Source: a virus. From it: DNA of 21,929 nucleotides. Under the pieces are notes generated by a model. That model searched no databases. It had not been told where the DNA came from and was given only the letters and a program-made list of their open reading frames with translations. Location: positions 1 through 21,929 of the IMG/VR virus record IMGVR_UViG_3300008450_000525. One strand, 5' to 3'. Shown in pieces: positions 1-21,425 of the stretch; the stretch's first letter is position 1, and the number at the start of each line of letters is the position of its first letter. The translations under genes and the position numbers were made by a program.

Positions 1-108
1 GGGTGGAATGCTGCGCTTGACTCGGCGGCAAATCAAGTTGCCGGGATGTTTGGCGGAGAAGACACGGCAGATTCCTTTGCCGTGTTTTTCCGCAACATGA
101 AGGTTTAA
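1..108 (+). CDS. C-terminal fragment of a convergent plus-strand protein (partial)
   Basis: An open frame runs from base 1 to a TAA at 106-108 and encodes the last 35 residues of a protein that begins outside the window, ending in ...FAVFFRNMKV. The amino-acid mix is ordinary for a soluble protein and the minus strand has no competing gene here (its only ATG, at 98, gives about 21 codons without a ribosome site). Its stop overlaps the stop of the 1407-aa minus-strand gene, so the two genes converge tail to tail. I do not recognise a family. A plus-strand terminator-like hairpin at 62-89 lies inside this frame, which is odd and lowers confidence that the frame is coding to its end. Confidence 0.5.
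   Translation, partial: GWNAALDSAANQVAGMFGGEDTADSFAVFFRNMKV
62..89 (+). terminator. Terminator-like hairpin with T-run, plus-strand orientation
   Basis: An 8-bp perfect stem (ACACGGCA at 62-69 with TGCCGTGT at 78-85) encloses an 8-nt loop and is followed by four further T residues to 89. This is the classic intrinsic-terminator layout for plus-strand transcripts. Read on the minus strand it lies about 20 nt after the end of the 1407-aa gene, but there it is followed only by a mixed pyrimidine run, so minus-strand termination would be weaker. It may separate the two converging transcription units. Confidence 0.5.
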
Positions 109-3100
109 TCCTTCTCTTCGCCTTCGACCGTGAGGCCCTGGCGTAAGAAGCTGCGTTTCTCGCGCAGCTTTTCTTTTTCGCGTTCGGCCGCGTCGCTGGT
201 GATCGCGCCCTTTGCCTCCAGACGTGTGAGCTTTTTGATCTCAACGTCAAGCGCGTTGATCATTTGCTTGGTCTGGCCGCGCTGGATTTTCTCTGAGGTA
301 TCCAGGTCAATCGGGCGAGCTTTGATACCCACGGTCTGCATCGCTGCGTACTTAGGTTGAATCGGCAAGCCGTCTGGACCAACGCCCGTGTACTCTGCCA
401 GGCCCACGTTGACCGGCTGGCCAGTGGCGTTGGCAATCACGTTCATGGCACGCTCAAAGTGGGTGTTGCCAATGGCGATTGCTGGGCTGACCTGTTTCCA
501 CATCCACGCCAAACGCTTTTGTGCAGCCTCGGCCGAGGTGTCCGTCTTGGTCACGATCTCTTTGTTGCGGAACGTGTCCTTGTTGAACAGCATCGCAGCG
601 GCCGTGGTGAGGATTGGGTTGTTTGGCGTGAGGGGTGCCAGCAACGGGACGCCGCCGGCGTTGTTGTGTGCGTCAAACAAATCACCGCCTGGGAAAAGAC
701 GGCTCACATCCAAGAACACCGGCAGGTTGGTCAGGTCATCCGTGCCCAAGCGAATCGCTTTCTGCGTACCCAGCGACAGGCTTGCGCCGCGCATCCAGTC
801 AGGCAGGAACTTGCGCTCTTGCTGCTCCATGTCTTTGGCGCGCTGACGGAATTCTGGATCGGTCATGTAGCGACGGATCACGGTCCACCAGTCTTCGTCG
901 TCACCGCCGCCCAGGCTTGCGGCCATGGCGTACATCGCAGCGTTGGCCACGTACAGCGCCACGGCTGGTGCAGCGTAACGCTCAGGGTGCTCAAGCGCCG
1001 TGTTGGCCAGGGCCGGGATCGCTTTGAAGGTGTAGCTGAAGAACGGCAGACCCACTGGCATGTCACGAATGACACGCGCAGTCTTGGGCAGATCGTCGTA
1101 GGTGAAGATGTACTTCTGTGCGTAGTCAACTGAATCGTCCACGCTCAGACCACGGCCGCGCGCGTCGCGGTAAATGAGGTAGCGGAAGAACTGATCTTCT
1201 GCGTCGTAGGCCACGCCCATTGGTTTGCGCAGGAACAACGACATCGCGTTCCACACGCGGTCCACGTTCTTGCCAATAGGTGACTCGGTCATCTGAGCCA
1301 TGGCGCGCAGCTCTTCAGGCATTGCACTGATCAGCTCAGAGCGATTGAACGTGCCGCCAAACAAGCCAGCCTCTTTGGCTTCGTCGACCATGTCGTCGCC
1401 CTTGACCAGGTCCTTGATTGTGCCGATGTACTTGTGTGCATCCCAATACGACACGCCGGCAAAGTGGGCCATCGTCAAGTTGGACAACACGTTGTTGGCG
1501 TGAGCCACTGGGTTGAGAACGGTCTTGCCCTCTTTCCACATCGACAGACCCTTGAGGTACATCTTGGTGAGGTCGTTCTGCATCGAGCTGTCGAATGCGC
1601 TCAATTGATCGAGCACTTCTTTGGGCACAAACTTGCCGGCCAGTTTGCCGTAGCGCGGGACCATGGTGTCCTCGATCTTGGTGTCGGGCACCTTGACATA
1701 GTCCGGCTGCTCTGTGCGGCTGCCGTAGGTGGCGGCCAGGCTCTCATACAAACGGCCAAGCGAAATGTCGCGCTGGCTTTTGTTGTAGCCCATGACAAAG
1801 CGGAACATGGCATCACGAATCTCGCCCATGTCGTCGCGTTCGTCGCGGGTGTAGTCGCGCCACATCGTCATCTCGGTGTCGACTGCTGGATCAAACGCGT
1901 CGTCGCGTTTCTCCCAGCCCTCGGCTTCCCATTCGGCAATGTCCTCGACCGGCACGTTCTGGAATAAGCCGCGTGCTTTGAGGCTGTTGCCGGTGATGCC
2001 TTGCATGGTTTTCTTGCGGCCAAGCAAACCCTTGACGGCTTTCATCCAGGCTTTGGTTTCGTCGCCCAGCTTTTGTTCGTAGAAGCGCGGCAGGTACTTG
2101 CCATCCCAGCGGCCGGCGGCCTCGGGTGACAGCATGCCCAGCTTGACTAGCTCAGCGGATTGCTCCGACATGATGGACTGCATCGAAGCGGCCAGCTCCA
2201 GCACGCGCTGGGGTGGTTTGCTGCCACGCTTGAGCTCGCCTTCGATGATGTCGCTGATCATCTCGCGCTCTTGCTGCGGCAAGTCTTTGAGGTTCTTGGC
2301 CACATCGACCGTGAGGTTCTGTGCCTTCTCGATTTCCGTCTTCATCTTGCGCAGGGCGCGAGACAGCTCGGGCGAGACTGGTGCCAGGTTGACCTTGGCC
2401 AACACGGTGTTGGCAACATCCGCTGCGTAACGGTAAGCCTTTGCACCTGCACCAAAGCGGAAGCGGCCCAGCTCATCGCGGCTGAGAACCCAGCCTTCGG
2501 TTTCTTTGCCGACTGGCTGGCGCTGGCTAAATGCGATCGGCGCGCCGGTGATGTCTTTGTCTGTTCCGAACTCTACGTTCTTGGCCAGGACCAGGGGGCC
2601 GATCTGGATCACCTCGTCAGCCTTGAGCACAGGGCGCATGCTGTCGCGGTCGTAAAAATAACTGTGGCGGAATGGGTCCATGCCGACCTGGGTCCAGGCC
2701 GGATCATTCAGTGCAGCGTCAGAACGCACCTTGGCGGCCGCATCGCTGATGGGTTTCCACTTGCCAAACATGGTGGCGATCGTGCCCTTGGATGTGCCTT
2801 GTGCGATCTTGGTTGCGGCTCTTTGGTTCATGCCAAAGGTCACGTCAGTCATTGCAGCAACCGACTCATAGCCGACCACGGGGCCGGCGTCATAGGCTGC
2901 CTGCACTTCGCGGTTGGTGGACTTGGGTGTGTGCACGCTGACCACCCAGGCGTCGTGCTCTTGGTACGACGGGATGTCCAGGCGCAGCTGGGCAAAGTCG
3001 CCGCTGGCCAGGGTGTCTGAGGGCAGGCCATACTTGGCCGCCTTCTCTGCGCTTTGACCACGGCCATTGGCCAGGGCATAAGTTGCCTCGGCTTTGGTTG

Positions 3101-4328
3101 TGATGGCTGGAACTTTTTCGTAAGGGTAGACCGGGCGCAGATCGTCAACCATGCGGTTGTAATCGTCCAGCGAAATCTTGCCGTCTTGCAGATCGGTGAC
3201 TGCTTGCTGGAGTTGCTCGGTGCGTTTGAACCGGTCGGAGCTGACGTTGCCGACGCGGCTGGCAGCAGGGTTCTTTTGCCCTGCCCGACTTACGGCGTAT
3301 CCTGGTTCGCCAGGCTGGCCCCGTCCTTGAACTTCGCTTTCAGCTCCCGGCTGAACGCCAGCTGGTTTGCCCTTGCCTCCATCTGCTTGGCCGGCGTCAT
3401 AGGAGGACGTGGTTGCGTCGTAGATGATCTTGCTGATTCGGCCTTCTTTGAATGCTTGGTCTGTTGCATCTTTAAATTTCTCCAATAAACCTTCACGCTT
3501 GACAACCGGAACGGCATCAAGAGTGGAGAACGCGGCATTGCCCTGCCCGCGTGAGTTGTCGATAACCTCAATTGCAAACCGAGGGTCACTGCCAAACTCT
3601 TGCTGGAGTTGGCGAACTGTTTCGCTGGACCCAGCATGTCCTTTGACAAGAGCCCGCAAAGTCACGGGCCGACCGCGCGACATGGCACGTTCAAGCACCC
3701 CGCCTTTTCGGTTTTCTAACGCATCAAGAGGGTCTCTGTATACGTAAGCAATAGTAACATATTGGTTGTTGTCGAGTGCGAGTTTTACATTCTTGGCGGC
3801 CTTGTCGTAGCTCGACATCGTGCCATCCAAGATTGTGTTGGCGCGCTCCATAGCGTCGCTGAGCAAGCTCTCGGCGCTGGACTTACCTGCCCCACCACCG
3901 CCCGCCATAAAGACCACCAAGGCCCCGTCTGGTGCGTTGGCCATACGTTCTTCAAACGCACGCTGCGTGAACGCGCTGGCAGCTTCGTGCACCTTGGGTG
4001 CCAGGCTTCGATCGGCGCGGTATTCTGCGGACAGCTCGCGGGCCTGATCGGTGTCAAGCAGCTTGCCGTTCTTGGTAGCAGGCAGCGCGCTGTACTCGCG
4101 CACAGCTGCATCGAAGTCGGAAAAGATTTTCTGTTGAAGCCGGGTGTTCAGGTCTTCGCCCTGCTTGGCGCTGAACGCAGGCGCGGCAACGCCAGGCATG
4201 CGGTCAGCAAAGGACGGCAGCAAGTATTGCAGGCCATCGTTAAGCAGGTACGTTTTGAACGCGGCTTTGCCTTCGATGACTCGCTCTTTGCCGTCTGCGC
4301 CGGTGAACCGGTATGTGCAGTCAGCCAT
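105..4328 (-). CDS. Giant polyvalent-type protein (1407 aa) with N-terminal P-loop/zeta-toxin-like kinase
   Basis: A 1407-aa protein, probably virion cargo delivered with phage DNA. Residues about 135-300 look like a zeta-toxin/P-loop kinase: Walker A GGGGAGKSS at 143-151, an LDGTMSSYD segment at 167-175 supplying a candidate catalytic Asp, and an Arg-rich region near 198-235. A linker (about 310-400) follows, then a module at about 445-585 (RLDIPSYQEHDAWVV, RHSYFYDRD, IGPLVLAKNV) that I associate with large polyvalent protein domains without being able to name the Pfam entry. The rest is mostly helical, with a conserved-looking stretch at 925-1125 (TVLNPVAHANN, PFFSYTFKAIPALANT) and a charged C-terminus. 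The start is supported by GGAGG 8 nt upstream, lying inside the last ferritin codons. No antitoxin gene is adjacent. Polyvalent assignment is family knowledge; delivery into the host is inference. Confidence 0.8.
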   Translation of the reverse strand: MADCTYRFTGADGKERVIEGKAAFKTYLLNDGLQYLLPSFADRMPGVAAPAFSAKQGEDLNTRLQQKIFSDFDAAVREYSALPATKNGKLLDTDQARELSAEYRADRSLAPKVHEAASAFTQRAFEERMANAPDGALVVFMAGGGGAGKSSAESLLSDAMERANTILDGTMSSYDKAAKNVKLALDNNQYVTIAYVYRDPLDALENRKGGVLERAMSRGRPVTLRALVKGHAGSSETVRQLQQEFGSDPRFAIEVIDNSRGQGNAAFSTLDAVPVVKREGLLEKFKDATDQAFKEGRISKIIYDATTSSYDAGQADGGKGKPAGVQPGAESEVQGRGQPGEPGYAVSRAGQKNPAASRVGNVSSDRFKRTEQLQQAVTDLQDGKISLDDYNRMVDDLRPVYPYEKVPAITTKAEATYALANGRGQSAEKAAKYGLPSDTLASGDFAQLRLDIPSYQEHDAWVVSVHTPKSTNREVQAAYDAGPVVGYESVAAMTDVTFGMNQRAATKIAQGTSKGTIATMFGKWKPISDAAAKVRSDAALNDPAWTQVGMDPFRHSYFYDRDSMRPVLKADEVIQIGPLVLAKNVEFGTDKDITGAPIAFSQRQPVGKETEGWVLSRDELGRFRFGAGAKAYRYAADVANTVLAKVNLAPVSPELSRALRKMKTEIEKAQNLTVDVAKNLKDLPQQEREMISDIIEGELKRGSKPPQRVLELAASMQSIMSEQSAELVKLGMLSPEAAGRWDGKYLPRFYEQKLGDETKAWMKAVKGLLGRKKTMQGITGNSLKARGLFQNVPVEDIAEWEAEGWEKRDDAFDPAVDTEMTMWRDYTRDERDDMGEIRDAMFRFVMGYNKSQRDISLGRLYESLAATYGSRTEQPDYVKVPDTKIEDTMVPRYGKLAGKFVPKEVLDQLSAFDSSMQNDLTKMYLKGLSMWKEGKTVLNPVAHANNVLSNLTMAHFAGVSYWDAHKYIGTIKDLVKGDDMVDEAKEAGLFGGTFNRSELISAMPEELRAMAQMTESPIGKNVDRVWNAMSLFLRKPMGVAYDAEDQFFRYLIYRDARGRGLSVDDSVDYAQKYIFTYDDLPKTARVIRDMPVGLPFFSYTFKAIPALANTALEHPERYAAPAVALYVANAAMYAMAASLGGGDDEDWWTVIRRYMTDPEFRQRAKDMEQQERKFLPDWMRGASLSLGTQKAIRLGTDDLTNLPVFLDVSRLFPGGDLFDAHNNAGGVPLLAPLTPNNPILTTAAAMLFNKDTFRNKEIVTKTDTSAEAAQKRLAWMWKQVSPAIAIGNTHFERAMNVIANATGQPVNVGLAEYTGVGPDGLPIQPKYAAMQTVGIKARPIDLDTSEKIQRGQTKQMINALDVEIKKLTRLEAKGAITSDAAEREKEKLREKRSFLRQGLTVEGEEKD
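3290..3400 (-). CDS. Possible embedded +1-frame ORF (36 aa) in a linker of the 1407-aa gene
   Basis: Within the 1407-aa gene, the +1 frame holds a 36-codon ORF (starts MTPAKQMEARANQ, ends GASLANQDTP) with a helix-like, charged composition. It covers residues 310-346 of the main frame, which there is a Gly/Pro/Gln-rich interdomain linker. No good ribosome-binding site is visible before either ATG (3400 or 3382), so independent translation is doubtful. It is listed because it matches the position and frame of two better-supported embedded ORFs in the 2064-aa gene. It may be a relic or chance. Confidence 0.2.
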   Translation of the reverse strand: MTPAKQMEARANQLAFSRELKAKFKDGASLANQDTP

Positions 4329-4332
4329 GAGC

Positions 4333-4824
4333 TTAGCCTCCCAGCTCTTGATCGATCAGGAGCATGCCAGCTTTGTCTTGATCGACAACCTGGATGCGGG
4401 CCAACAGATCGCCGTACTCGCCGACACTGGTGCGTTGGAATTCCAAGAACTGCAACAAGAACTGCTGGACCACGGGGTCGCTTTCAGCTTGGGCATACCA
4501 CTTCTTGTAGTCGTTGTACAGCTCCAGCTCGGTCTCGTAGCCAGTCTCAACTGCGTCGCTCAAAGTCTTGATTGAATCCGTCATGGCTTCGATCATTGGG
4601 ATTTTGGCCACACAACCTACGTCGTTTTGAAACTCAACGTGCAGCTGGTAGTGCACCAGCTCGTCGGCGCTTTCTTTCAAAAAGAATTTGGTTGCGCCAA
4701 AGTACCCGATACGTTGCAACTGGTTGGCAATGTGCTTGTAAAGATTCGATGCGTAGAGCTCCGAATGGACAGCGTCGTCCAACATGTTTTTGAGCTCGGT
4801 GGAGATAATCATTTTTGGTGTCAT
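4333..4824 (-). CDS. Ferritin (FtnA-like, 163 aa)
   Basis: Ferritins are four-helix-bundle proteins that assemble into 24-subunit cages, oxidise Fe(II) and store ferric mineral. Comparing by eye with E. coli FtnA, the sequence aligns over its whole length, including the ending GMLLIDQELGG against GLYFIDKELS. The ferroxidase residues are all present: E22 (FtnA E17), E55 (E50), H58 (H53), E97 (E94) and Q130 (Q127), plus Y29 (Y24). The third-iron-site residues are largely lost: E49 is D54, and E126, E129 and E130 are F129, T132 and S133. An ATG with TGAGG 7 nt upstream starts the gene, 8 bp after the 2064-aa gene; the next gene's ribosome site is inside its last codons. It is thus embedded in a late-gene operon between two giant polyvalent proteins. 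Family assignment is strong; role in infection is unknown. Confidence 0.9.
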   Translation of the reverse strand: MTPKMIISTELKNMLDDAVHSELYASNLYKHIANQLQRIGYFGATKFFLKESADELVHYQLHVEFQNDVGCVAKIPMIEAMTDSIKTLSDAVETGYETELELYNDYKKWYAQAESDPVVQQFLLQFLEFQRTSVGEYGDLLARIQVVDQDKAGMLLIDQELGG

Positions 4825-4832
4825 GTTGGTCC

Positions 4833-7800
4833 TCAGTCGCAGTTGATCTTAACCGTGCCGGCGTCATCCAGCTCGGAAAGAATGTCAAGAAAATTGTCTT
4901 GCACGAATTGGATTCGCGCAGCATCGGGGTGATCTTTCAAAGCCGCTTCGCCTTTGGTCCTAGCCAGGCCACGCTTGTCCAGGTTGGCAAAGATCGTGGC
5001 AGGGTTGGCCGGCTTTGGCTTGTCAGTCTGCCGCACTTGCTTGATGTCTGCAAGTGCTTCGGCCTGGGCCTTTGCGCCGTCGTCGTATTCAGCAATGACA
5101 TCACCGTCAGCCTTGGTGTACTTGCCAAAATACTTTGGATCGTGGACCATGAACACGACATCGGGTTCGCCGTTGTTGAATTCCTTGAAGGTCTCTTTGT
5201 CCCAGCCGTCGGGGCTGTATTCGTCGTTCCACTTTGTGCGGGCCACAGCGCGAAAGCCGTGGACGCTGTACAAGTTGGGAAGCACGGTGTCGAATGCGTC
5301 AAGGCGGCGGCCGCCTTCTTGCGTGGCCAGCTGGAGGATCGCATTGACTGCGCCCTTTTGTGACTCGCCGGCAAACACCGACACAATGTCGTCGCCCTTG
5401 AGAGCAAAGCCTGCTTTGCCGTCTTCGGCCAAGAACAAGCGCATGCCTTCGTAGTCACCCTGGTCGTAGACGTAGACAGCAGCACCGAATGGTGAGCTGT
5501 CTTTGGCTGATTGGATGGAATTGCGGAATGCCGCTGCGCCGTTTGCACCGACCTCAAAAAACTTGGGTGCGGCTACGGGGATTTCGCCCAGGGCATTTTT
5601 GAAAGTGGTCGCCGGGCTGTAGATGGCGACCGACGGGACACCTAGAACCCGAAGGCCGCTGCCATCTCCTCCGCTTTTTCGCGTGTAAGAGTTGGGTTGT
5701 CCTTCATCGCTTGCGCCAGCGGATCGAACCCGGTCGATGACGCCTGTCGTGAGGAAAACCCGTCCCTCTCGTTGATTAAAGCCTCGAACTCCTGGCGCGG
5801 CACCAGCTTGGGTCCCTGCTCCAGTACCTGTTCCTGTTGTTCCTGCGCTGACTCTGCTCGCATAATCTTTCTCCGCTTCGGCTACAGCCGATTGAATGTT
5901 TGCGTCAGAGACGCCGATGCTACGCGCCAGCTTGGCTGCCGCGTTAGCGTAGTCCGGTGCCTCATCGTCCGAGTAGCCTTCTTCTTTGTTGGCCGACTCG
6001 TCCGCTTTTGCAATGTCGTATAGGCGTTTCTCTGGATACCAAAGCAACGCTTGTAAGTCGGACATTGTAAGTGCGGGATGATCTTTTTGCACTTCTTTTA
6101 AGATTTGGCCAAACACTTTGCGAATGAAGTTGCGTTCTTCTGGACCGGCCGGGGCTTCCTTCTGACCATCCAAATACTTGGCCAGGGCGTTGCCAGTTTT
6201 GCGCAGGTTCTCGCCGGTCTCAGTCTTGTTGAACTGCTCCCGAGTGGCGGGGTCCATCGATGCCTTCTGGATCGCGGCGGACAAACCTTCCAGATCGCCC
6301 ACGTTCAGCTTGGCACCCAATGCTTTTTGAAACTCAGCCGCAGCAGGTGCGTTCTGTTTCATTTTTACAACAAGATCGCGCAGCTCTTGGCGTTTTGCTT
6401 TGACCATGTCAGGGCGTGACTCGATCAGCGTACCGGTCCAGCGGCCCCATGTGCGCATGAGCCAGCGGTCCATCGTGAGCTGGTCAAAGAACCCGTTCAA
6501 GTTGGAGTAGAAACCGTTGCCGATCTTGGGGCCGAGCACAGCAGCACCGCGCACCTGGGTGTCAGCGAATTCGCCGGTCACTTCCAGGCCGGTGGCGCGC
6601 TTGATCTGGGACACAGCGAACTTGCTGTCCATAAACTTGCGCACGCTGTCGATGCCGTACTGATCGACCATGGTGTTGAACAAACCCAGGCCGTCGTTGA
6701 TGGCCTTTTGCGCCTGCCCGCCCTGGATGTTGGTCGGCATTTTGCCGCTGGTCTTGTAGGCTTTGTACGCACGCTCAGCAAGCTCAAAATTCTTGTCGAC
6801 TTTTAAGCCGTTCGATGTGACGGCCAGCGCCCAAGTGAATGCAAACTTGGCATTCGGGTCGGTGTCGATCTCGGGGTGAATCTTGCCCAAGATTTTGAGG
6901 GCCTTGGTCACCGTTTTGTCGTACCAGCCCACGGCGTTGGCGTTGGCTTGCAACGCATACAGCGCATCGGCCACACCAACACGCACCAGGTACTTCTCGG
7001 TCTGCGCATTCTGTGCAGCCAGGTCAATCTTGGCCAGCTTGGCTGCGTTCGTGATGGCAGTTTGCAGGTTGACCTTCAATTCCCGGTTGGTGTTGAACGA
7101 ACCCTCGCGTGCGCGGGGGATGATGTTCTCCAAACGGGCAAAGCTGTCGATGTCTTCGGGCACTTCTTTCTTGCTGAAGCGCACGTCGCTGCCAATCCTG
7201 GCCAGCTCAGTGTTGGCTGCTTCGGATTGCTCGGCGGGAATTTCCAAATTGCCCATGCGCACCTGAGCGCCAGGGATTTTGGACACGTCGATGGCGCTTG
7301 CCTCGCGTGACAGCAAGCCTTTGGTCAGTTTGGTGGGTGCCGCAGCTTGCGGTGCCGGTGCTGAAGGGACTTGGCCAAGGGCGCGAACGGGCACTGCCTT
7401 GTGTTTCATGCCCAGCAGCACGACGGCTGACTGGTTGTTTCCAAACGGCGCAATGTAGCCGTCGAAACCGGCGTTGATTACTGCGGACTCGAACGCGTTG
7501 GCGTCCGCTTGCGGCTTGATGAGGCGCGTTTTGGGGTCGTAGATGTTGTCGAGCTGGACTTCGTGGGCGATGCCTCCGACTCCGGCTTCTGGGCGGACGC
7601 CTGCGCCCTGGTCGACATAGAAGTAAATCCTGTTTTTGAGGCGCGGATCAGGGCTACTGTCCAAGCGATTGCGTTCTGCACCTTTGAGGCCACGGCCATA
7701 GTACGCCCCGCTTAAGGCTTGGCGGGGAGCCGTTGAGTAGTGCCGCCCGACAACGGAGACTGCGCCTTGGCGGCTTGTTCCGTAGCGGGGGGCCGGACCG

Positions 7801-10800
7801 CCCCCACCTGCACCAGGTATTTGTCCAATTGCGCCTGCAAGGCTTGGCTGGATTGCACCTCCTGGCGCGACATCGATTCGTTGTTCATTCTGTTCTCCTT
7901 GCACCTGGCTAAAAGCCGGGGCTGTAGTTGCGACCTGCTGCAATGTGCCGTTGCGATAAGCCACCAAGGCATCGCGTGCGACCATCTTGGCTTTGTTCAA
8001 ATCACGAATGTAGGTGTCGACCTTGGCCGACTCTTTCGTTTTCTGATTGGCATTGCCGCGCAGGGTAGACAGCAGATTGTCAATGACGCCAACCCATTTG
8101 TCGACAAAACCTTTGAAGCCTTGAGGATCAGCCTTTGCAACGCTTGCCCAGAAACGCTTGTCCGTAGCCCGGTTGCCCAGGAAGTCGGCGGTCATTTCGG
8201 ACTTCAAGTTGTTGCTTGTAAGCAACGCTTGCACGCGTTGTTCCCGCGCAACAGGATCGGCAATTCCGGCCAGCTCATCTGCGTGAAGGAAGTTTTCCAC
8301 GTAGGCGCGCTTGCCTTCCGGCGTCATGTCATCGAACACACTGTCGATGCTGGCCGTGAACTTCTGAGCTGGGGTATCGGTTTGGCCAGCTGCGGTTTCA
8401 GCTGCGGCGATTTGCTCGACCGTGTGCTTGAACTCATGCAGCGACGTGCGCATCACGTTGACATCGGTCGCCGTGTTGACGAAGGCCGTGCCGCCAATGG
8501 CGAAGCCGTTGGGCGCAGTGGGTGCTGTATCAGTAAACGCTACAACCCTGCCGCCGAACTGGCTGCCCAGGGCGTTGGCAATGTCGTTGACTGCGGTCTC
8601 TTGCTCAGGCGCTGGCGCGTTGAGACGGGGTGCAGTTACACCGTTGGCAGCAGCCCATTGGTCGAGAGATGCTTGTGCAGTTGCTCGCGCTCTGGGGGCG
8701 TCAGGGATTCCTGCCACTGTCGGAGCTGCGGCGTCAGACACTGCCTGGACACCTGGGGTGGTGTCTGGGATTGAGATGAAGGTTTCTGTAACAGGCGTGG
8801 CATTTGTTTGGGCCGCTGGGGCAGCGGCGGTAGGTTTACGTGTGAAGGTGACCGAACCATCTGGATTCTCCGTCTGATCAAACTCTTGCGCAAGAGTGCG
8901 ACGATCGCCCAGGCGCAATTGGCCAAGCTCAGTTTGCGTAAGAGTTCGGGATTCGACGGGAGCCTCTACGACGGGAGCAGCAGGCTGGACAGCCTCTACC
9001 CTTGCCGGGGTCTCGATCGCAGCGCCTGGGGCCGTTTGCTCAGCCTGACGGGCTGTTAACTCAACGGCCGCACTTCGGCGGGTAATGGCTGGCGTAGTTT
9101 CATCGCTGGCAATAGTTGTCAGCTGGTCGTCAGTAAGGTTGGCGACAGGCTCACCCTGGATGCGCTGAGGGCGCGGGGTGTTCAAGCGCAATCTATCCAG
9201 GCCGAACTGTTGTTCGGTTTCAGCGTTGACCGGGGGCAGCTCAGTGCTGACCGGTGGGGTGATGGTCGGGGTGATTGTTTCCAAACCACTGGGTTCAATC
9301 CGGCCGCCAGGCTCAATGCCCAAGTCAATGGGCGCATCGGTGAGCATCGGCTCGTTGAAGACAGGCAACGGGGTCACGGCACTGCCGGGCACCAGAAGCT
9401 CATCTACTGAGCCTGCCATGACGCCGGCGGCATCAGCCATATCGTCCACGTTTGTGGCGGTTCTGAATGCTTCTTGCGCCACTTGCAAGTTGGCCGTGCG
9501 CGTGGGGCTGATGATGTTTGCGTCGTAGGTTTGCACGTCCAGCAGACGGCGAGCCATGGCGTCGCCACCGGTGAACTCAGTGCCGGCAACAGCGCGATCG
9601 ATCTCGTTGGCGATCTGGCGTTCAGGGCTGACCTCTTGCAGCTTGCGCGCGATAGGCGCAGCCACGCGGCCAGCACCACCCATGACCAGGGTCTGAGCAG
9701 TCGTTTGGTAGAACGTGTCGCCGACGGCTTTGAGATAGTCGTCAAGGGTTGAGTTGGGGGTCAGGCCAAACGGTGCCCACTTGTCCGTGCCAAACTGCAT
9801 AGCAGTCGTGACTTGTTCGGCCAGGTTTTCCTTGGCCAAGTACCGGGCAAACACGGGCATGATCTCGTCAACGGGCACGCCTTTGACCAGGTCTTTGAAG
9901 CCCTTCATAAACGGGGCCGGCAAGCTGGCGCGTTCGCCAACCCATTCAGCAACACCCATGAAGGCGGCGCGCGGCAGCGCCTGGCTCATGCTTTGGCCAG
10001 CGGCTTTGCCGTTGCCGTATTCTTCAGCGACGGTCTGCGCAACTGCGGCGGTAACGCCCAGCGCGGGGTTGACTAAGTACGGCGCAAAGTTGTTGATCGC
10101 ACCGGCGACGCCGGTCTCAATAAAGTTCAAAGCGGCGTTCGGGTTTTCGCCGATCGCTTGAAGTTTTGCTTTGGCTTCTTTTTGCTGAATGGCGTTGCCG
10201 CTGGACAGGCGAGAGCCGACATCGGCCAGTTGCTTGGACCCGGCCAAGTCGCCGGCAGATTCAAGCGTGTCGCCGATCAGCTGCCAGGCACCAGCCGAAG
10301 CAGACTGAAACCCGCCGGCAACTTTGCCGCCAATGGCTTTGCCTGCGCCGACCAACTGCTCAAAGCCAGTGGGCTGGATCGTGCGAGCACCCAGCAAACC
10401 GCCGGTCTCTTCCAGCACCATCTTGCCTTCGGGGCGCTTGTATTCTTCCTTGCTGGCAAAGTCAAACGTCGACGGCTTGATCTCGCCAAAGCGTTGTGGC
10501 TCGGCTCCAGTCGATGCGTCGCGCGCGGCAAGCGCATCGGCTGATTCACCATTCAAACCCTGGGAGATGTACGCATCACGGCGCGCTTCCCGACGGGTAT
10601 CAAAGATGCGCAGTGTGGGCGACTGCTTGGCGTCGAGCTCACGGTACTGTTTGTCGATGACTTGAAACACCGAGCCTTCAAAGCCTTTGCTTTGCAGCAG
10701 GCCCTGGCGCTCTTTGGGATTCGCCGCGTCGTATTTTGTTTTGAGCTCTTTAAACTTTTCTTCGCTGACTGGCGCACCACGGCGGTCGATGATTGGCGCT

Positions 10801-11027
10801 TGTGGGGGCAGCGTCGTGCCTTCAAGCACACTGGTGCGCTTAGGCTCAGCAGCGGCTATGATGGCCGCCCCGAAGTCTGCGCCCATGGCGTCTGAAGTTG
10901 ATACTGGTTCGGCCGCTTGTCTTACAGGTGCTGGTTTGCTTTCCTGGGTTGACTCAAGCGGGACGAAGCTGTAAGGCTTGCTATCCTCTTCAGTGTCTTT
11001 CGACAGCGGTACGAACTCGTATGCCAT
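4833..11027 (-). CDS. Giant multidomain polyvalent protein (2064 aa): HExxH peptidase, ADP-ribosyltransferase-like and GNAT-like modules
   Basis: The largest gene in the window, probably a particle-borne effector cargo. Modules in order: N-terminal duplicated YxFVPL motif (3-8, 19-24); Ala/Gly-rich helical region (about 215-465); Pro/Thr-rich linker (545-800); metallopeptidase-like module with HEFKH at 864-868 and EMTADFLGN at 944-952, the Glu being a likely third ligand; linker; ADP-ribosyltransferase-like module (about 1092-1215) with RHYST, GLKGAERNRL, RIYFYV, AHEVQLDNIYD and NAFESAVINAGFDGY, matching the ART type known from polyvalent proteins; helical module (1291-1720) containing GPKIGNGFYSNLNG and MDRWLMRTW; linker; GNAT-like module (about 1800-1965, ending LPNLYSVHGFRAV). 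The start overlaps nothing; only a weak AAG-type ribosome site is visible 3 nt after the preceding stop. Domain order fits polyvalent proteins; the GNAT call is by pattern only. Confidence 0.8.
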   Translation of the reverse strand: MAYEFVPLSKDTEEDSKPYSFVPLESTQESKPAPVRQAAEPVSTSDAMGADFGAAIIAAAEPKRTSVLEGTTLPPQAPIIDRRGAPVSEEKFKELKTKYDAANPKERQGLLQSKGFEGSVFQVIDKQYRELDAKQSPTLRIFDTRREARRDAYISQGLNGESADALAARDASTGAEPQRFGEIKPSTFDFASKEEYKRPEGKMVLEETGGLLGARTIQPTGFEQLVGAGKAIGGKVAGGFQSASAGAWQLIGDTLESAGDLAGSKQLADVGSRLSSGNAIQQKEAKAKLQAIGENPNAALNFIETGVAGAINNFAPYLVNPALGVTAAVAQTVAEEYGNGKAAGQSMSQALPRAAFMGVAEWVGERASLPAPFMKGFKDLVKGVPVDEIMPVFARYLAKENLAEQVTTAMQFGTDKWAPFGLTPNSTLDDYLKAVGDTFYQTTAQTLVMGGAGRVAAPIARKLQEVSPERQIANEIDRAVAGTEFTGGDAMARRLLDVQTYDANIISPTRTANLQVAQEAFRTATNVDDMADAAGVMAGSVDELLVPGSAVTPLPVFNEPMLTDAPIDLGIEPGGRIEPSGLETITPTITPPVSTELPPVNAETEQQFGLDRLRLNTPRPQRIQGEPVANLTDDQLTTIASDETTPAITRRSAAVELTARQAEQTAPGAAIETPARVEAVQPAAPVVEAPVESRTLTQTELGQLRLGDRRTLAQEFDQTENPDGSVTFTRKPTAAAPAAQTNATPVTETFISIPDTTPGVQAVSDAAAPTVAGIPDAPRARATAQASLDQWAAANGVTAPRLNAPAPEQETAVNDIANALGSQFGGRVVAFTDTAPTAPNGFAIGGTAFVNTATDVNVMRTSLHEFKHTVEQIAAAETAAGQTDTPAQKFTASIDSVFDDMTPEGKRAYVENFLHADELAGIADPVAREQRVQALLTSNNLKSEMTADFLGNRATDKRFWASVAKADPQGFKGFVDKWVGVIDNLLSTLRGNANQKTKESAKVDTYIRDLNKAKMVARDALVAYRNGTLQQVATTAPAFSQVQGEQNEQRIDVAPGGAIQPSLAGAIGQIPGAGGGGPAPRYGTSRQGAVSVVGRHYSTAPRQALSGAYYGRGLKGAERNRLDSSPDPRLKNRIYFYVDQGAGVRPEAGVGGIAHEVQLDNIYDPKTRLIKPQADANAFESAVINAGFDGYIAPFGNNQSAVVLLGMKHKAVPVRALGQVPSAPAPQAAAPTKLTKGLLSREASAIDVSKIPGAQVRMGNLEIPAEQSEAANTELARIGSDVRFSKKEVPEDIDSFARLENIIPRAREGSFNTNRELKVNLQTAITNAAKLAKIDLAAQNAQTEKYLVRVGVADALYALQANANAVGWYDKTVTKALKILGKIHPEIDTDPNAKFAFTWALAVTSNGLKVDKNFELAERAYKAYKTSGKMPTNIQGGQAQKAINDGLGLFNTMVDQYGIDSVRKFMDSKFAVSQIKRATGLEVTGEFADTQVRGAAVLGPKIGNGFYSNLNGFFDQLTMDRWLMRTWGRWTGTLIESRPDMVKAKRQELRDLVVKMKQNAPAAAEFQKALGAKLNVGDLEGLSAAIQKASMDPATREQFNKTETGENLRKTGNALAKYLDGQKEAPAGPEERNFIRKVFGQILKEVQKDHPALTMSDLQALLWYPEKRLYDIAKADESANKEEGYSDDEAPDYANAAAKLARSIGVSDANIQSAVAEAEKDYASRVSAGTTGTGTGAGTQAGAAPGVRGFNQREGRVFLTTGVIDRVRSAGASDEGQPNSYTRKSGGDGSGLRVLGVPSVAIYSPATTFKNALGEIPVAAPKFFEVGANGAAAFRNSIQSAKDSSPFGAAVYVYDQGDYEGMRLFLAEDGKAGFALKGDDIVSVFAGESQKGAVNAILQLATQEGGRRLDAFDTVLPNLYSVHGFRAVARTKWNDEYSPDGWDKETFKEFNNGEPDVVFMVHDPKYFGKYTKADGDVIAEYDDGAKAQAEALADIKQVRQTDKPKPANPATIFANLDKRGLARTKGEAALKDHPDAARIQFVQDNFLDILSELDDAGTVKINCD
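5642..5863 (-). CDS. Candidate embedded gene in +1 frame (73 aa), inside the 2064-aa gene
   Basis: A complete 73-codon ORF overlaps residues 1722-1795 of the 2064-aa frame, exactly the Gly/Thr-rich linker before the GNAT-like module. It begins MRAESAQEQQEQVLEQ and ends DNPTLTREKAEEMAAAFGF, an acidic, amphipathic, protein-like sequence, while the host frame reads repetitive Gly/Thr/Ala. An upstream in-frame TAG means it is not simply a longer shadow, and GGAG (5871-5874) lies 7 nt before the ATG. I do not recognise a family. Options: a real small gene, a relic of a separate gene before fusion, or the product of a +1 frameshift giving the giant an alternative C-terminus. Confidence 0.4.
   Translation of the reverse strand: MRAESAQEQQEQVLEQGPKLVPRQEFEALINERDGFSSRQASSTGFDPLAQAMKDNPTLTREKAEEMAAAFGF
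7712..7888 (-). CDS. Candidate embedded gene in +1 frame (58 aa), inside the 2064-aa gene
   Basis: A 58-codon ORF starting MNNESMSRQEVQSSQALQ and ending TTQRLPAKP overlaps residues 1047-1105 of the 2064-aa frame. It spans the Gly/Pro-rich linker between the metallopeptidase and ADP-ribosyltransferase-like modules and the first residues of the latter. A perfect AAGGAG (7895-7900) sits 6 nt before its ATG, the same ribosome-site sequence used by the 393-aa gene in this operon. The first 40 residues look like a real helical protein (LQAQLDKYLVQVG). No family recognised. An in-frame extension upstream to 7972 has a shadow-like composition, so the start with the ribosome site is preferred. Confidence 0.45.
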   Translation of the reverse strand: MNNESMSRQEVQSSQALQAQLDKYLVQVGAVRPPATEQAAKAQSPLSGGTTQRLPAKP

Positions 11028-11030
11028 AGG

Positions 11031-12212
11031 TTACTTTTTGCCTCGGACGTAGCCAATCAAATTACCGGACTTGTCTTTCACTTCCCAGCCTTTTTCGGTG
11101 CGGATGCCGATCGATGCGCCAGCTGGCGCGCCTTGCACTTCGCCAATTGAAGGCGCTTTCTCAGCCTTGGCTGCTGCATCGGGCTTGGCCGCAGGCTCAG
11201 GCTTAGGTGGTGGCTTGTTTGTATCGCGCGCGTCGAGGCTACCTTTTTGCAAAGCCGTGGCTTTGTCGCGGACTGCAATGGCGTCATCGTACTGGCGCTG
11301 CCATGCGGCCTTAGCTTCAGGCGTGGTGCCTTTGCTGCCTTCGGTCAATGACTTGATCGTGGCGTTGGCCGAGTTGATCATCGAAGTCAGCTTCTCGCTG
11401 CTGTTCTTGTTGAACGCTCCGCCGGCAATTTCAGCATCGATCTTCTCAATCTCTTTGCCGTACTTCTTGCTCAACGCGCCAGCTTGGCCAGCTTGTGCCA
11501 CGTTCTCGGTGATCTGCGATTGACCCACAGGCGTGACCTTGCTGTCACCCGTGTACTGGTTGTACTGCATTCCGCCTTCGACGTTGACCAAAGGTTTGGC
11601 TTCGGACACTGCCACAGCCTGGCCACCTTTGCCTGCGTTGATGTTGCCGGACAAAACGCCTTTGGCAGTCTCAGTGCCAAACTCAGTGCGTCGGCCTTTG
11701 GCCACATCATCAAATTTGCCGCCCAAGGCATAAGACTCTTCGATGTCTGCAAGGGCCTTGGTCTTGGAATTAAAAAATTCACGGAATTGCGGGGGCAGAC
11801 GTTTAACCTTTTGCTCGTCACCAAAATCGCCGAAAGTTGTTTCTTCTTTTTCAAACGCGCTGAAGTCGCCGGTCTTGCGAGAGCTGTAATACTGGGCGTA
11901 CTCGGGTTCAGTCATACCCAGTTTGCCAGCGACCATGCCAGCGAGCTTGCCGCCTGGTGCATAGTCTTCAGCCTTGAGACCGCCCTGGCCACCGCCGCCA
12001 CTGCTGTCTTTGCTGGCGGCTATTTCACGGCGTAACTCGCGGTCGCGCTCGCGGTCTTCCAAACGCATCGCCAGTTCTTCTTTGCGCGATGCGGCTTTGT
12101 ACGCGCGGTCTTCCTGGGCCATCAAGTCTTTGAACAAGAATTGGCCCATGGTGGACCCGGCGTCCGCAATACCTTTGCCGATACCGGCCCAGATCAATCC
12201 ATCACCAGCCAT
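11031..12212 (-). CDS. Putative virion/ejection-associated protein (393 aa)
   Basis: A soluble, mostly helical protein with no recognised domain. It begins with MAGDGLIWAGIGKGIADAG, then a highly charged helix (about residues 35-65, rich in Arg/Glu/Asp), a Gly spacer (SGGGGQGG) and a middle region containing QFREFFNSKTKALADIEESY. A Pro/Ala/Lys-rich hinge (about 335-355) leads to a small C-terminal segment ending GWEVKDKSGNLIGYVRGKK that looks like a short beta domain. The frame stays open 62 codons further upstream, but the ATG at 12212 is chosen because AAGGAG (12219-12224) lies 6 nt before it and the extension is only a shadow of the preceding gene. Its position just before the 2064-aa cargo gene suggests a structural or ejection role; this is inference. 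Confidence 0.7.
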   Translation of the reverse strand: MAGDGLIWAGIGKGIADAGSTMGQFLFKDLMAQEDRAYKAASRKEELAMRLEDRERDRELRREIAASKDSSGGGGQGGLKAEDYAPGGKLAGMVAGKLGMTEPEYAQYYSSRKTGDFSAFEKEETTFGDFGDEQKVKRLPPQFREFFNSKTKALADIEESYALGGKFDDVAKGRRTEFGTETAKGVLSGNINAGKGGQAVAVSEAKPLVNVEGGMQYNQYTGDSKVTPVGQSQITENVAQAGQAGALSKKYGKEIEKIDAEIAGGAFNKNSSEKLTSMINSANATIKSLTEGSKGTTPEAKAAWQRQYDDAIAVRDKATALQKGSLDARDTNKPPPKPEPAAKPDAAAKAEKAPSIGEVQGAPAGASIGIRTEKGWEVKDKSGNLIGYVRGKK

Positions 12213-12222
12213 GTTGTTCTCC

Positions 12223-12741
12223 TTAAGCCGCTGCTTGCGAGAACACGGCTGGATCGATCTGGTCCATGCCTTGTTGCAGCTGCGATGTGTCAACGCCATT
12301 CTCGCCGAGGTAGCGGAGCAGCATGTCTTTGAAAGCGCCAGCAGCATCCTGGGGTTGGATGTCCATCTTGGCAGCTTCTGCGATGTCGACGATCTCATTC
12401 AAGATGGCCATGGCCAGCAAGCCGATCAGCTCGCGTGGGACCTTGCCATCCGTGCGCTCGTCCACCACGCTGACGATCTCGTAGGCGACGTTGGCCAAGC
12501 CTTCTTGCTTGTTTTTGGAAGCGCGCAATTGTTTGGCAATGTCGTCGGCTGCACCACTTTGGTAGAGCACCTTCAACGCAAACTTCATGGCCAAAATGAA
12601 TTCGGGATTGCGCTCGTCAACTTCCTCGCCACCCTGGTCTTCTTGGCCAGGTGGCATTTGCCCTTGCATAGGTTGCTCGGGGGGCATGGGAGCGGCTTCG
12701 GGTTTTTGCCCAGCCATCTCGTTTCTAATCAATCCAGCCAT
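12223..12741 (-). CDS. Helical phage protein of unknown function (172 aa)
   Basis: The first 45 residues are Pro/Gln/Met-rich and disordered (PMPPEQPMQGQMPPGQ), and residues about 45-155 form a compact helical domain with ordinary composition (LIGLLAMAILNEIVDIAEAA). No catalytic motif or membrane segment is evident. The start has AAAGGA before it, and its TAA stop lies within the ribosome site of the next gene, indicating translational coupling. Its place among probable virion and ejection proteins suggests a particle protein or assembly factor, but I do not recognise the family. Confidence 0.7.
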   Translation of the reverse strand: MAGLIRNEMAGQKPEAAPMPPEQPMQGQMPPGQEDQGGEEVDERNPEFILAMKFALKVLYQSGAADDIAKQLRASKNKQEGLANVAYEIVSVVDERTDGKVPRELIGLLAMAILNEIVDIAEAAKMDIQPQDAAGAFKDMLLRYLGENGVDTSQLQQGMDQIDPAVFSQAAA

Positions 12742-14285: not shown

Positions 14286-15302
14286 TTAACCGCGACCAGG
14301 AGGGGTAGCGTAGTACGGGTTGTAAACCGGGTAGTTGTTGTTTGCCATCGGCGTGCCAGGCTGCACAGTGCTGATGTTGCGGTTGATGACGCCAGGGCTA
14401 CCAACGGTTGCAACCATAGGCTGTCCTGAATACCGAGCGTTGATGTCACGCGCAGCTTGTTGAGGGTCCCAAGCATTTACGCCTGGCATCCCTGTGACTG
14501 GATTGACGGGTTGATTAGAACCCCACAAAGCCGTGCCCACGTTTGCGTTGTAACGATCGCGAGCTTCTTGCGCCATGCGCAGTTCGTAATCGCGTTGGTC
14601 TTCTTGCGCTGCTTTTTGGCCAGCGCCTTGGATCATGCCGCCAACCACTTGTGTGCCTGCGGTGATCGCGCCGTACTGGGCAAGAGGAGACAAGCTGGCA
14701 AAGCCTGTTGCAGCAGGAGCCGCAGCAGCGGCAGGAGCCACGCCCGCAGCAGCAAGAGGGGCTGAAGCCGGCATGGCCAAACCTTGAGCGCCGCCCATGG
14801 TTGCGCCGACGTTTGCCTGGGTGATACCGCCGTTGATGGCGGCCGTTGATGTGCCAGCGGTAGGCGCTCCAATCGTTGCCGTCGGTGCAGCAACCGTAGT
14901 CGGTGCAGCAGCTGCACCAACGGTCATTGCGCCAGTGCCTGCGGCTTGGCCAGCGGCTGCGCCGGCAGTACCCCAGGCATTGCCCACCGCGCCTGCTGCC
15001 TGGCTAAAGTTACCGGCCATAACAGAACCCCAAGCAGACGACAGTGTGGACGCGGCGCTGCTCACGCCCGCGCCCATGCCCGAGAGGAAACTTCCCCCCG
15101 CCGCCGATGAGCCAAAGCCCCCGGCCAGCGCCGCACCTCCGAAGTAGATTGCGCCAGCAATGATGATGGCTTTACCCAGTTTAGAACTGGCAATGCTTTT
15201 GACCAAGTCGCCGACGCCTTTGACAGCACCTTTGACGACATTGACAACGCCTTTGACAACGCTGGCAACACCTCCGAAAACGGATTTAACTACTTTGCTC
15301 AT
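14286..15302 (-). CDS. Ala/Gly-rich hydrophobic, ejection-like virion protein (338 aa)
   Basis: The N-terminus (residues 4-36) is an amphipathic repeat of VVKG-type units (VVKGVVNVVKGAVKGVGDLV), followed by a hydrophobic stretch (43-62, GKAIIIAGAIYFGGAALAGG). A long Ala/Gly/Thr/Pro-rich middle (60-210) and a short charged segment with QEDQRDYELRMAQEARDRY follow. The tail has DPQQAARDINAR, GVINRNIS and YPVYNPYYATPPGRG. Podoviral ejection proteins often combine membrane-active and Ala/Gly-rich segments, so a role in forming the DNA conduit is plausible but inferred. Its ATG overlaps the stop of the GNAT gene (ATGA). The tail repeats the pattern found in the 164-aa neighbour. Confidence 0.65.
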   Translation of the reverse strand: MSKVVKSVFGGVASVVKGVVNVVKGAVKGVGDLVKSIASSKLGKAIIIAGAIYFGGAALAGGFGSSAAGGSFLSGMGAGVSSAASTLSSAWGSVMAGNFSQAAGAVGNAWGTAGAAAGQAAGTGAMTVGAAAAPTTVAAPTATIGAPTAGTSTAAINGGITQANVGATMGGAQGLAMPASAPLAAAGVAPAAAAAPAATGFASLSPLAQYGAITAGTQVVGGMIQGAGQKAAQEDQRDYELRMAQEARDRYNANVGTALWGSNQPVNPVTGMPGVNAWDPQQAARDINARYSGQPMVATVGSPGVINRNISTVQPGTPMANNNYPVYNPYYATPPGRG

Positions 15303-15745
15303 GCTGAGACTCCTCGAACGTATGAGAGATTCATTGCCTCTCGGTTGAACCCAACGCGGTGGAAAAACTTCACCAGGCGTGGGTCAACCCCTGGCTCTAA
15401 CTCGATGACGGCCACTTTGATTGCCGATCTGCTTTTGACCCAGCGAGCAAACTCGCGAATCAATGGCAAACCTGCGCCCTTGACAGTCGTGTAATACAAA
15501 AGCACAGAGCACTGCATGCGCTCGTACCAAAAACTTTTTTGCACGCAAGCCGCAAACGCTGCAACGATCTTGCCGTCTTCATCCTCTGCCACCCACAGGA
15601 AGTGTGCAGGGTTGAGACAGACTTTGGCCGTGTCGGCCATCGACAGCTTGTCGATTTTGACCGGCAACGGATCGTTTGAAACCGAGATAACGGCCAGCTC
15701 CACAATGGCCGGCACATCTTCAAATTTGGCTTTGCGATAAATCAT
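15299..15745 (-). CDS. GNAT-family N-acetyltransferase (148 aa)
   Basis: GNAT enzymes transfer acetyl from acetyl-CoA to an amine on a protein or small molecule. The fold pattern is visible: MIYRKAKFEDVPAIVELA (beta1-alpha1), HFLWVAEDEDGKIVAAFAA (beta2-beta3), a beta4/alpha3 region with TVKGAGLPLIREFARW (82-103) where the degenerate GAG may be the pyrophosphate-binding loop, then VAVIELEPG and the typical LVKFFHRVGFNREA ending. At 148 aa it is full length. It overlaps both neighbours by ATGA, so it is tightly co-translated with the hendecad protein and the Ala/Gly protein. Substrate unknown; a virion protein or host target is possible. Confidence 0.85.
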   Translation of the reverse strand: MIYRKAKFEDVPAIVELAVISVSNDPLPVKIDKLSMADTAKVCLNPAHFLWVAEDEDGKIVAAFAACVQKSFWYERMQCSVLLYYTTVKGAGLPLIREFARWVKSRSAIKVAVIELEPGVDPRLVKFFHRVGFNREAMNLSYVRGVSA

Positions 15746-18874: not shown

Positions 18875-19357
18875 TCAAACTCCAAATTGAGCGTAGAAGA
18901 ACAAAACGGTCCCGAGGCTACCTACCCCTACGGAACCCCAAAACAACGGCATGGCGACGGCAAGGATCGCGGCGGTGGACAGCACAATGCCGATCTGCAA
19001 AAGCGATCCGGCGTATGTGAAATACGGCGACTTGGCCTTGGCCAAATCGCGCTCAACTTCTAGGGCCTTGGCTTTGGCAGCCAGATCGTCCATGTCGGCT
19101 TTCATGCGCCGAGCCTCTTCGCGGTAGTGCTCCGAAAGAGAACCCTTGGTGGTGTCAGCCGTAGTGGCGTAGATCACGCTGCGCACGTTCTTGGCTTGAT
19201 ACCAGGCCCACTGGTTGTTGGCCGCAATAGTGTTGCCCAAAATCTTTGAGCTGTTGCTGCCGCCCAGCAAAGTGCTGATCGCCAACAACGCCGCAAAGAT
19301 GGTGACAACAATTGCCGCGCGCTTTTTGATGATGATCTCAAGTTCACTTCGGGTCAT
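18875..19357 (-). CDS. DUF4337-like membrane protein in the lysis block (160 aa)
   Basis: Hydrophobic segments at about 14-32, 116-139 and 142-159 flank a charged coiled coil (75-108). The stretch NTIAANNQWAWYQAKNVRS (42-60) and the LLQIGIVLSTAAILAVAMPLFWG segment match the pattern of DUF4337, a family of unknown function. The start is the ATG at 19357 with AGGAG 6 nt upstream; the 12-codon extension upstream is rejected. It directly precedes the holin gene, so an accessory holin, antiholin or spanin-like role is possible but unproven. Confidence 0.75.
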   Translation of the reverse strand: MTRSELEIIIKKRAAIVVTIFAALLAISTLLGGSNSSKILGNTIAANNQWAWYQAKNVRSVIYATTADTTKGSLSEHYREEARRMKADMDDLAAKAKALEVERDLAKAKSPYFTYAGSLLQIGIVLSTAAILAVAMPLFWGSVGVGSLGTVLFFYAQFGV

Positions 19358-19367
19358 AACTCTCCTA

Positions 19368-19517
19368 TCAGAATGGCAGCTTGGCCAAAACAAATTTCAA
19401 AACCTTGTCAGCTATCGGTTGCGGCAGCACGTAAAGCAAATCCAGAAACCACCAGGCGGCGCAGACATAGCAGAAGACTTTCAAAAATTGATCGAAAGAC
19501 TTCTGGTACTCATTCAC
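19368..19517 (-). CDS. Small single-TM protein (49 aa)
   Basis: A GTG at 19517 overlaps the TGA of the preceding gene (GTGA) and opens a 49-codon frame: VNEYQKSFDQFLKVF, then a hydrophobic Trp/Phe/Leu segment (about residues 14-31, with AAWWFLDLLYVL), then an amphipathic Lys-containing tail ending FVLAKLPF. Its stop is followed at once by the AGGAG of the DUF4337-like gene, so it exactly fills what would otherwise be a 156-bp gap in a gapless operon. An AGGTG 8 nt ahead could serve as ribosome site. Possibly a small lysis regulator. Confidence 0.6.
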   Translation of the reverse strand: MNEYQKSFDQFLKVFCYVCAAWWFLDLLYVLPQPIADKVLKFVLAKLPF

Positions 19518-20861: not shown

Positions 20862-21107
20862 CTATTTGGCCATCAAGCTCAGCAGCATCATAATGATTGA
20901 GCCAAAGCCACCGATCACGGCAATAGACGCGCCGACCATGATTTGCTCGATGCGCTTGAGCCTGGCATTGCTGCCCTGGAATTGCAGCTCCATATTCTTG
21001 ACGGTGCTTTTGAGCTGAAGGTCGATGTTCTCGTAGCGCAGTGCACAGATTTGTTCATGCGTGTTCAAGCGGGCCTCCGTCTTGTCAATCACTGCGCTCT
21101 CATCCAT
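20862..21107 (-). CDS. Small coiled-coil/TM protein (81 aa)
   Basis: Residues 1-54 form a charged coiled coil (IDKTEARLNTHEQ, NARLKRIEQ) and 57-79 a C-terminal TM helix (MVGASIAVIGGFGSIIMMLL). The layout resembles XhlA-type hemolysin/holin-helper proteins, but similarity is only in architecture. Its ATG overlaps the preceding TAA (TAATG), showing coupled translation with the upstream 105-aa gene. Confidence 0.65.
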   Translation of the reverse strand: MDESAVIDKTEARLNTHEQICALRYENIDLQLKSTVKNMELQFQGSNARLKRIEQIMVGASIAVIGGFGSIIMMLLSLMAK

Positions 21108-21424
21108 TAAGCACTCCAGGGCAGTGCTGTATTTGCAGGGCTGATAGGCGGTGTAATCATGCTGTCAATTTGGCCCTGCACACAGGCTTGTGCGCTGGCG
21201 ATCTGGTCAGCAGGAATCCAACCAATGACCGTGGCTTCTGTCAACTGATCGTAGGGGATGAAGGCACCCACTTGGTCAGCAGAGTTAAACTGCGTGTTGC
21301 CACCGATGGATGCGGTGTTAGAGCCGTCCACGCCAGTGACTTCCCAGAGGGCGTTCACTACGTAGTTGGGGTCTGGCTGTTGCAGGGTGTACATGCGGGT
21401 GATAGTGGTGGTGAATGTGGTCAT
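21107..21424 (-). CDS. Phage protein, second of a tandem paralogous pair (105 aa)
   Basis: Contains FIPYDQLTEATVIGWIP (55-71) and ends ANTALPWSA, sharing both with the adjacent upstream 105-aa gene. The N-terminal half is beta-rich (VNALWEVTGVDGSNTASIGG). GGAG 9 nt upstream lies in the last codons of the paralog. I associate this PYDQLT...GWI...LPWS pattern with a small family seen next to tail-fibre genes in phages (DUF7936-like, from memory). Function unknown; a fibre-associated or assembly role is likely from position. Confidence 0.65.
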   Translation of the reverse strand: MTTFTTTITRMYTLQQPDPNYVVNALWEVTGVDGSNTASIGGNTQFNSADQVGAFIPYDQLTEATVIGWIPADQIASAQACVQGQIDSMITPPISPANTALPWSA

Positions 21425-21425
21425 T

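Follow-up and report, generated by a model that had tools for sequence, protein, structure and literature searches.

Why would a bacterial virus carry a ferritin gene, and why would it be placed between two very large genes? This question is raised by the window, a stretch of 21,929 nucleotides of IMG/VR virus record IMGVR_UViG_3300008450_000525, in which an ORF for 163 amino acids lies within a run of minus-strand genes (Table 1). A first-pass annotation, made from the sequence alone, had described the product as a phage ferritin, FtnA-like over its full length, in a late operon between two giant cargo genes, here called giant1 (upstream) and giant2 (downstream). It had also suggested that such a ferritin might store iron of the host, load iron into particles or protect DNA.

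Table 1. Positions of the ferritin locus, of other genes in the window, and of two proteins encoded at related loci.
Feature	Sequence	Positions	Strand	Remarks
Ferritin	window	4333..4824	-	163 aa; E22, E55, H58, E99, Q130; Y29; third site absent
giant1	window	4833..11027	-	2064 aa; upstream half of split putative ejected protein; sole Cys C2063
giant2	window	105..4328	-	1407 aa; downstream half; Zeta_toxin near N-terminus; sole Cys C4
Ribosome-binding site of giant2, GGGAGG	window	4337..4342	-	inside the last ferritin codons; read directly
Sole Cys codon of giant1 (C2063, penultimate)	window	4839..4841	-	
Sole Cys codon of giant2 (C4)	window	4317..4319	-	
C-terminal tail motif of giant1, last 58 aa	window	4836..5009	-	...NFxDILxxLxxxGxVKINC(D/K)
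N-terminal head motif of giant2, 45 aa	window	4194..4328	-	MxxCTYxFxxxxGxxxxIxGxxAFKxYL
455-aa ORF preceding giant1	window	11031..12398	-	homologues 394-395 aa
GNAT-type acetyltransferase (phrog_1249)	window	15299-15745	-	within ejection module
DUF4337 protein	window	18875-19393	-	1e-31; lysis region
Two tandem DUF7936 paralogues	window	21107-21743	-	105 aa each
Mini-protein, 138 aa	L281	8567-8980		C5 and C138
Protein with C-terminal Cpn10 domain, 287 aa	L299	8126-8986		directly upstream of phage ferritin

The identification as a ferritin was borne out by profile, fold and structural comparison. The ORF matched the Pfam family Ferritin (PF00210, E=3.4e-15) and, in phmmer, roughly 60 PDB ferritins (best 3e-7). 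The AlphaFold2 model, built from 28 viral homologues, had a pLDDT of 92.7 and contained five helices, A-E (residues 9-38, 42-68, 88-112, 117-147 and 151-162), which correspond to the four-helix bundle and short fifth helix of ferritins. In Foldseek, this model aligned with E. coli FtnA-type structures (PDB 1EUM, 4ZTT and 4XGS) at a TM-score of 0.93 over 158-160 columns, so the structural check against FtnA kept the protein within the ferritins; it shares the five-helix fold with FtnA but only about 20% identity, and the phage proteins form a separate clade. The product of the gene is a real ferritin, and it would be expected to assemble into a cage of 24 subunits. In BFVD, Ferritin/Dps-like folds were also seen as parts of larger phage proteins, some of them labeled "prohead protease" (e.g., A0A6J7XDU5, A0A6J7WIS1), which may hint at other links between ferritin and capsid.

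The residues of the ferroxidase center were compared with those of FtnA using an FtnA query that equals PDB 1EUM over its full length except for one residue. FtnA E17, E50, H53, E94, Q127 and Y24 have equivalents in E22, E55, H58, E99, Q130 and Y29 of the phage protein. Among 104 distinct phage sequences, E22, E55, H58, E99 and Q130 were present in every one, including all the diiron ligands (FtnA E17, E50, H53 and E94), and position 29 was Tyr in 83 and Trp in 21. The first-pass annotation had named E22, E55, H58, E97 and Q130 as the five ferroxidase residues; E97 has to be exchanged for E99 as the site-B glutamate because FtnA E94 aligns with the invariant E99, whereas position 97 varies (E, D, N, Q, K, T or S) across the phage homologues, and the other four were correct. 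A ferritin kept as a purely structural relic was rejected, since the diiron ligands are invariant, and the protein is probably catalytically competent, oxidizing Fe2+ at the diiron site.

The replacement of the third site by F129, T132 and S133, which had also been proposed, was reproduced in the FtnA alignment, and D54 (FtnA E49) likewise belongs to the lost site. The third site of FtnA (site C; E49, E126, E129 and E130) is lost throughout the homologues, with E126 kept in 1 of the 104 phage ferritins, E129 and E130 in none, and Ser, Ala or Thr at the position of E130. Animal H-chain ferritin has a diiron center without third-site ligands, and it shares this with both the phage ferritin and SynFtn of marine picocyanobacteria. 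Site C has been described as absent from SynFtn (PMC7762939), so a missing third site excludes the FtnA subtype, not a ferritin. In most bacterial Ftns, E130 is a ligand of site B as well as of site C (PMC7762939), and S133 therefore alters site B besides site C. By its residues, the center of the phage ferritin resembles H-chain or SynFtn-type centers; the phage protein is not closely related to SynFtn in sequence (23% identity), and its late-operon setting in phages sets it apart from SynFtn and H-chain ferritin alike.

A survey of related phages, as the first-pass annotation had suggested, showed that the ferritin recurs. IMG/VR scans gave 115 distinct viral ferritin loci, 41-100% identical to the queries used, all of them metagenomic as for the MAG fragments below, with ORFs that are longest-ORF calls and loci that are not independent of each other. 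In a maximum-likelihood tree, one branch (100/99) separated 38 phage ferritins from 19 cellular ferritins, which were mainly from Pseudomonadota, the eukaryotic row being a long branch. The median dN/dS was about 0.085 in the clade of the window, showing purifying selection on the phage ferritin. With a phage-only profile, the best cellular ferritin in 399 Pseudomonadota genomes scored 84 bits, whereas a phage-like contig in a MAG bin scored 267 bits. No close cellular parent was found in GTDB contig scans or in class and phylum genome scans; the strong cellular matches of the class scan were set aside as canonical FtnA or Thermotoga-type ferritins, since that profile contained FtnA and Thermotoga ferritin. 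The GTDB contig scan gave three matches, all on MAG contigs, and giant neighbors are retained in two of them; the contigs with phage ferritin were binned with Burkholderiales, Rhodoferax and Methylobacter, and these bins give only a hint of the hosts. No relative was found among INPHARED phages in tblastn searches with three family members, and the FtnA query gave six INPHARED records with FtnA-like matches of 28-35% identity. The ferritin is therefore shared by an entire family of bacterial viruses from the environment. A single insertion recently acquired from a host does not fit the 115 loci, the clade of their own and the low dN/dS, and an auxiliary metabolic gene lately taken from a host was rejected in view of the separate clade, the lack of a close match and the recurring positions. 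A published description of a phage ferritin of such kind was not found in the literature.

The positions at which the gene recurs are of few types. In the window, 8 nt separate the giant1 stop from the ferritin ATG and 4 nt separate the ferritin stop from the giant2 ATG, and this spacing, together with the ribosome-binding site of giant2, upholds the tight late operon described earlier. Throughout the main group, the ferritin likewise has giant1 on one side and giant2 on the other, each only a few bases away. Elsewhere it directly follows the portal gene (21 loci with phrog_6547 and 3 loci with the lambda family), the portal gene plus a gene for 100 amino acids (2 loci) or a MuF minor head protein (3 loci), and the remaining loci are mostly between giants. 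Across several unrelated types of phage, the ferritin thus adjoins a gene for a portal, for MuF or for a giant polyvalent, putatively ejected protein. A relative of 55.7 kb, G001, is apparently complete, because its last bases recur near its start as a direct terminal repeat of 100 bases or more. It encodes TerL, a podovirus-type head-tail connector/portal (phrog_332), a major head protein (phrog_1357) and tail genes, and on the circle the tail genes are followed by the module with giant1, ferritin and giant2. Among phages that are named or deposited, Pseudoalteromonas phage Y3 included, the closest capsid proteins are 31-43% identical. The ORF preceding giant1 in the window is a probable further member of the ejection module; its true start is probably further in, given the length of its homologues, and its homologue in G001 contains no Cys. 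Two other genes of these regions were observed. The GNAT-type acetyltransferase gene of the window is about 92% identical in G001 and G002, where neighboring genes are 40-50% identical, and a GNAT-like gene also lies upstream of several fused giants (see below). The Cpn10 domain encoded at L299 is GroES-like.

Polyvalent proteins have been described as very large late phage proteins whose effector domains include Zeta-toxin, ART and MuF-C and for which injection is predicted (Iyer et al., 2017; PMC5512222), in a text in which the word "ferritin" is absent. The giants are alike in size, late genes and effector domains: ART-PolyVal, MuF_C, RelA_SpoT and Zeta toxin domains, several of them unrelated, occur among the members of their alignments, and they share the late module with portal, capsid and tail genes. 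No Pfam match was obtained for giant1 of the window. The earlier description of the neighbors as large and cargo-type is supported by these domains and by a lack of Cys like that of known ejected proteins, and the giants are probably taken into the particle and then ejected into the host. In ferritin-less relatives, the counterpart of the "two giant cargo genes" is one protein, of which they are the halves. The C-terminal 795 aa of giant2 are conserved, although they were modeled poorly by AlphaFold2 (pLDDT 60), and an IMG/VR scan with this part gave 74 loci. The ferritin directly preceded giant2 at all loci where the giant2 start was closed and sufficient DNA lay before it, except in fused giants. 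Six fused giants were read (2505-4189 aa), in which the N-terminal part matches giant1 and the C-terminal part giant2; no ferritin was found in the fused-giant contigs, which may be incomplete fragments. Judged by these alignments, the ferritin gene of the window sits exactly where one giant protein is cut in two.

In a second lineage, L313, L280 and L277 have an upstream and a downstream giant that are colinear with a single, unsplit giant of 2088 aa in L303. The region that L313 has in common with it ends about 87 aa before the end of the upstream giant and resumes at residue 41 of the downstream giant. In this lineage, the ferritin also lies behind an unsplit giant (L303 and L289) or at the portal (L318). 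Since it occurs with unsplit giants, it needs no cysteine ends, and the ferritin as an obligatory partner of such ends was rejected.

Exactly one Cys, at the ferritin-facing end, was present in 48 of 49 complete giant1 and 59 of 60 complete giant2 proteins of split loci, and five of the six fused giants contained no Cys, while the remaining ORFs of these phages contain about 9-11 Cys per 1000 aa and the ferritin itself is not cysteine-poor. Among 107 loci with co-directed neighbors, tail and head Cys occurred together at 73, in 13 upstream and 9 downstream giant clusters, and no convincing case of either alone was found; two apparent cases look like a wrongly called edge ORF (L261) and an unrelated gene (L086). 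The tail and head motifs are conserved in the main clade (HMM E 1e-21 to 1e-31) and were absent from the six fused giants tested. Outside the main clade, HMM significance is mostly weak, with several matches at the expected ends, and homology there is suggested weakly, mostly by position and Cys; the head profile missed a head in L293 that is visible by eye, so an absence by this profile is weak evidence. In L281, the order is a 1187-aa giant with C1186, a 158-aa gene, the 138-aa mini-protein, the ferritin and a 1455-aa giant with a head Cys. The mini-protein carries both Cys-head and Cys-tail motifs and has one further homologue, in L364 (65% identical). This alternation of tail and head suggests tail-to-head docking.

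The ejected proteins of well-known phages provide a comparison. T7 gp15 and gp16 and N4 gp50 (the virion RNA polymerase, 3500 aa), gp51 and gp52 contain no Cys, against about 4.5-11 per 1000 in most other T7 and N4 genes counted as a control (L376 and L377). T7 gp15 and gp16 and the N4 polymerase are, like the giants, large internal virion proteins free of Cys, but they are single chains with no ferritin between them and no terminal Cys pair. Since known ejected proteins are Cys-free, the lack of Cys in the giants fits delivery through the periplasm, and their lone terminal Cys is an exception under selection.

Considering the above results, we propose an explanation to which we give an even chance: a late, catalytically competent ferritin works with the portal/ejection apparatus, and the halves of the split giant are probably rejoined via their paired ends. 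Ferritin of the phage clade would be made late, alongside portal and ejection proteins, and would act while particles are assembled in the infected cell, or within the head, most likely binding and oxidizing Fe2+ at an H-chain-like diiron center without the third site. In the phage of the window, giant1 with its Cys-tail, the ferritin and giant2 with its Cys-head form a three-part cassette, in which the giants are the halves of one very large, otherwise Cys-free polyvalent protein, probably packaged and ejected. Docking of the halves to each other, and perhaps also to the ferritin, would most likely be the task of tail and head, giving back the continuity that a single chain provides in relatives. 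The ferritin is probably not ejected, because it is not cysteine-poor and a 24-mer cage is too large for the portal channel.

Co-expression alone could explain the position of the ferritin. In that case a soluble ferritin would oxidize and store free Fe2+ in the dying cell, so that new DNA and proteins suffer less from Fenton chemistry. The gene would merely occupy a convenient, strongly expressed late slot, and its product would have no contact to portal or giants. This is possible, if clearly short of probable: the intact diiron site in 104 of 104 sequences, the lack of Cys depletion in the ferritin and its several late positions in related phages, at the portal or the giants, all agree with it, but portal, MuF or ejection-type genes adjoin it in almost every case, not tail or lysis genes, and where the giant is split, the break coincides exactly with the ferritin and both ends carry a Cys. 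In another reading, the lone Cys at the giant1 end and the giant2 start would form a disulfide or share iron, thereby rejoining the halves under control of the ferritin, whether by H2O2 from the ferroxidase reaction, by iron supply or by shielding the thiols from Fenton chemistry; the halves would part in the reducing host cytoplasm. Such a joint is a special case of the favored explanation, so that their probabilities overlap, and we regard it as doubtful. The single Cys on the ferritin-facing end of each otherwise Cys-free half, the constant co-occurrence of tail and head Cys, the L281 protein with both Cys, and the fused relatives with neither tail nor head point toward it, while the ferritin is also found without split giants and terminal Cys could serve other uses. 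A still more specific form, in which tail, ferritin and head are a portable cassette and a virion-associated ferritin governs the making, breaking or metal content of the single-Cys clasp, we consider unlikely.

Iron might instead be the cargo itself, carried in particle ferritin to help uptake at iron receptors or to be delivered to the host, as in the "Ferrojan horse" idea. According to excerpts of the report on phage Sajous1 (PMC10892097), peptides of gp217, a protein with a Phyre2-predicted ferritin fold, were detected by mass spectrometry, but TonB and FeoB mutants were infected as well as the wild type. The same excerpts place gp217 in a different phage group and beside a tail completion gene, and their description includes no giants or Cys ends. 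The ferritin gene of the window lies in the head/ejection module, not with tail fibers, and iron carriage of this kind is very improbable here. Even harder to credit is a ferritin gene inserted into the giant gene by chance, with ends that decayed into new termini. The colinearity of fused and split giants would allow it; the conservation of the terminal motifs in the main clade at the E-values given, the single Cys kept across all the downstream and upstream giant clusters, and the same arrangement in the second lineage contradict it.

What is new here is that giants split into two halves, with one Cys per half facing the ferritin, are fused in ferritin-less relatives. Genetic support for the "Ferrojan horse" idea had been scant; the present family ties phages to iron through a genetic link that is concrete, widespread and conserved, and it places this link in the head/ejection module. 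With a single Cys facing the ferritin on each half, the question can be tested via two residues, and if the unlikely portable-cassette reading is true, there would be an iron- or redox-controlled joint in a phage delivery machine. Furthermore, Cys-free composition looks usable as a sequence signature and genome-wide predictor of ejected phage proteins.

Other genes in the window were also recognized. The DUF4337 protein is encoded beside a phage lysozyme and a holin-like gene, and the two DUF7936 paralogues lie further toward the end of the window.
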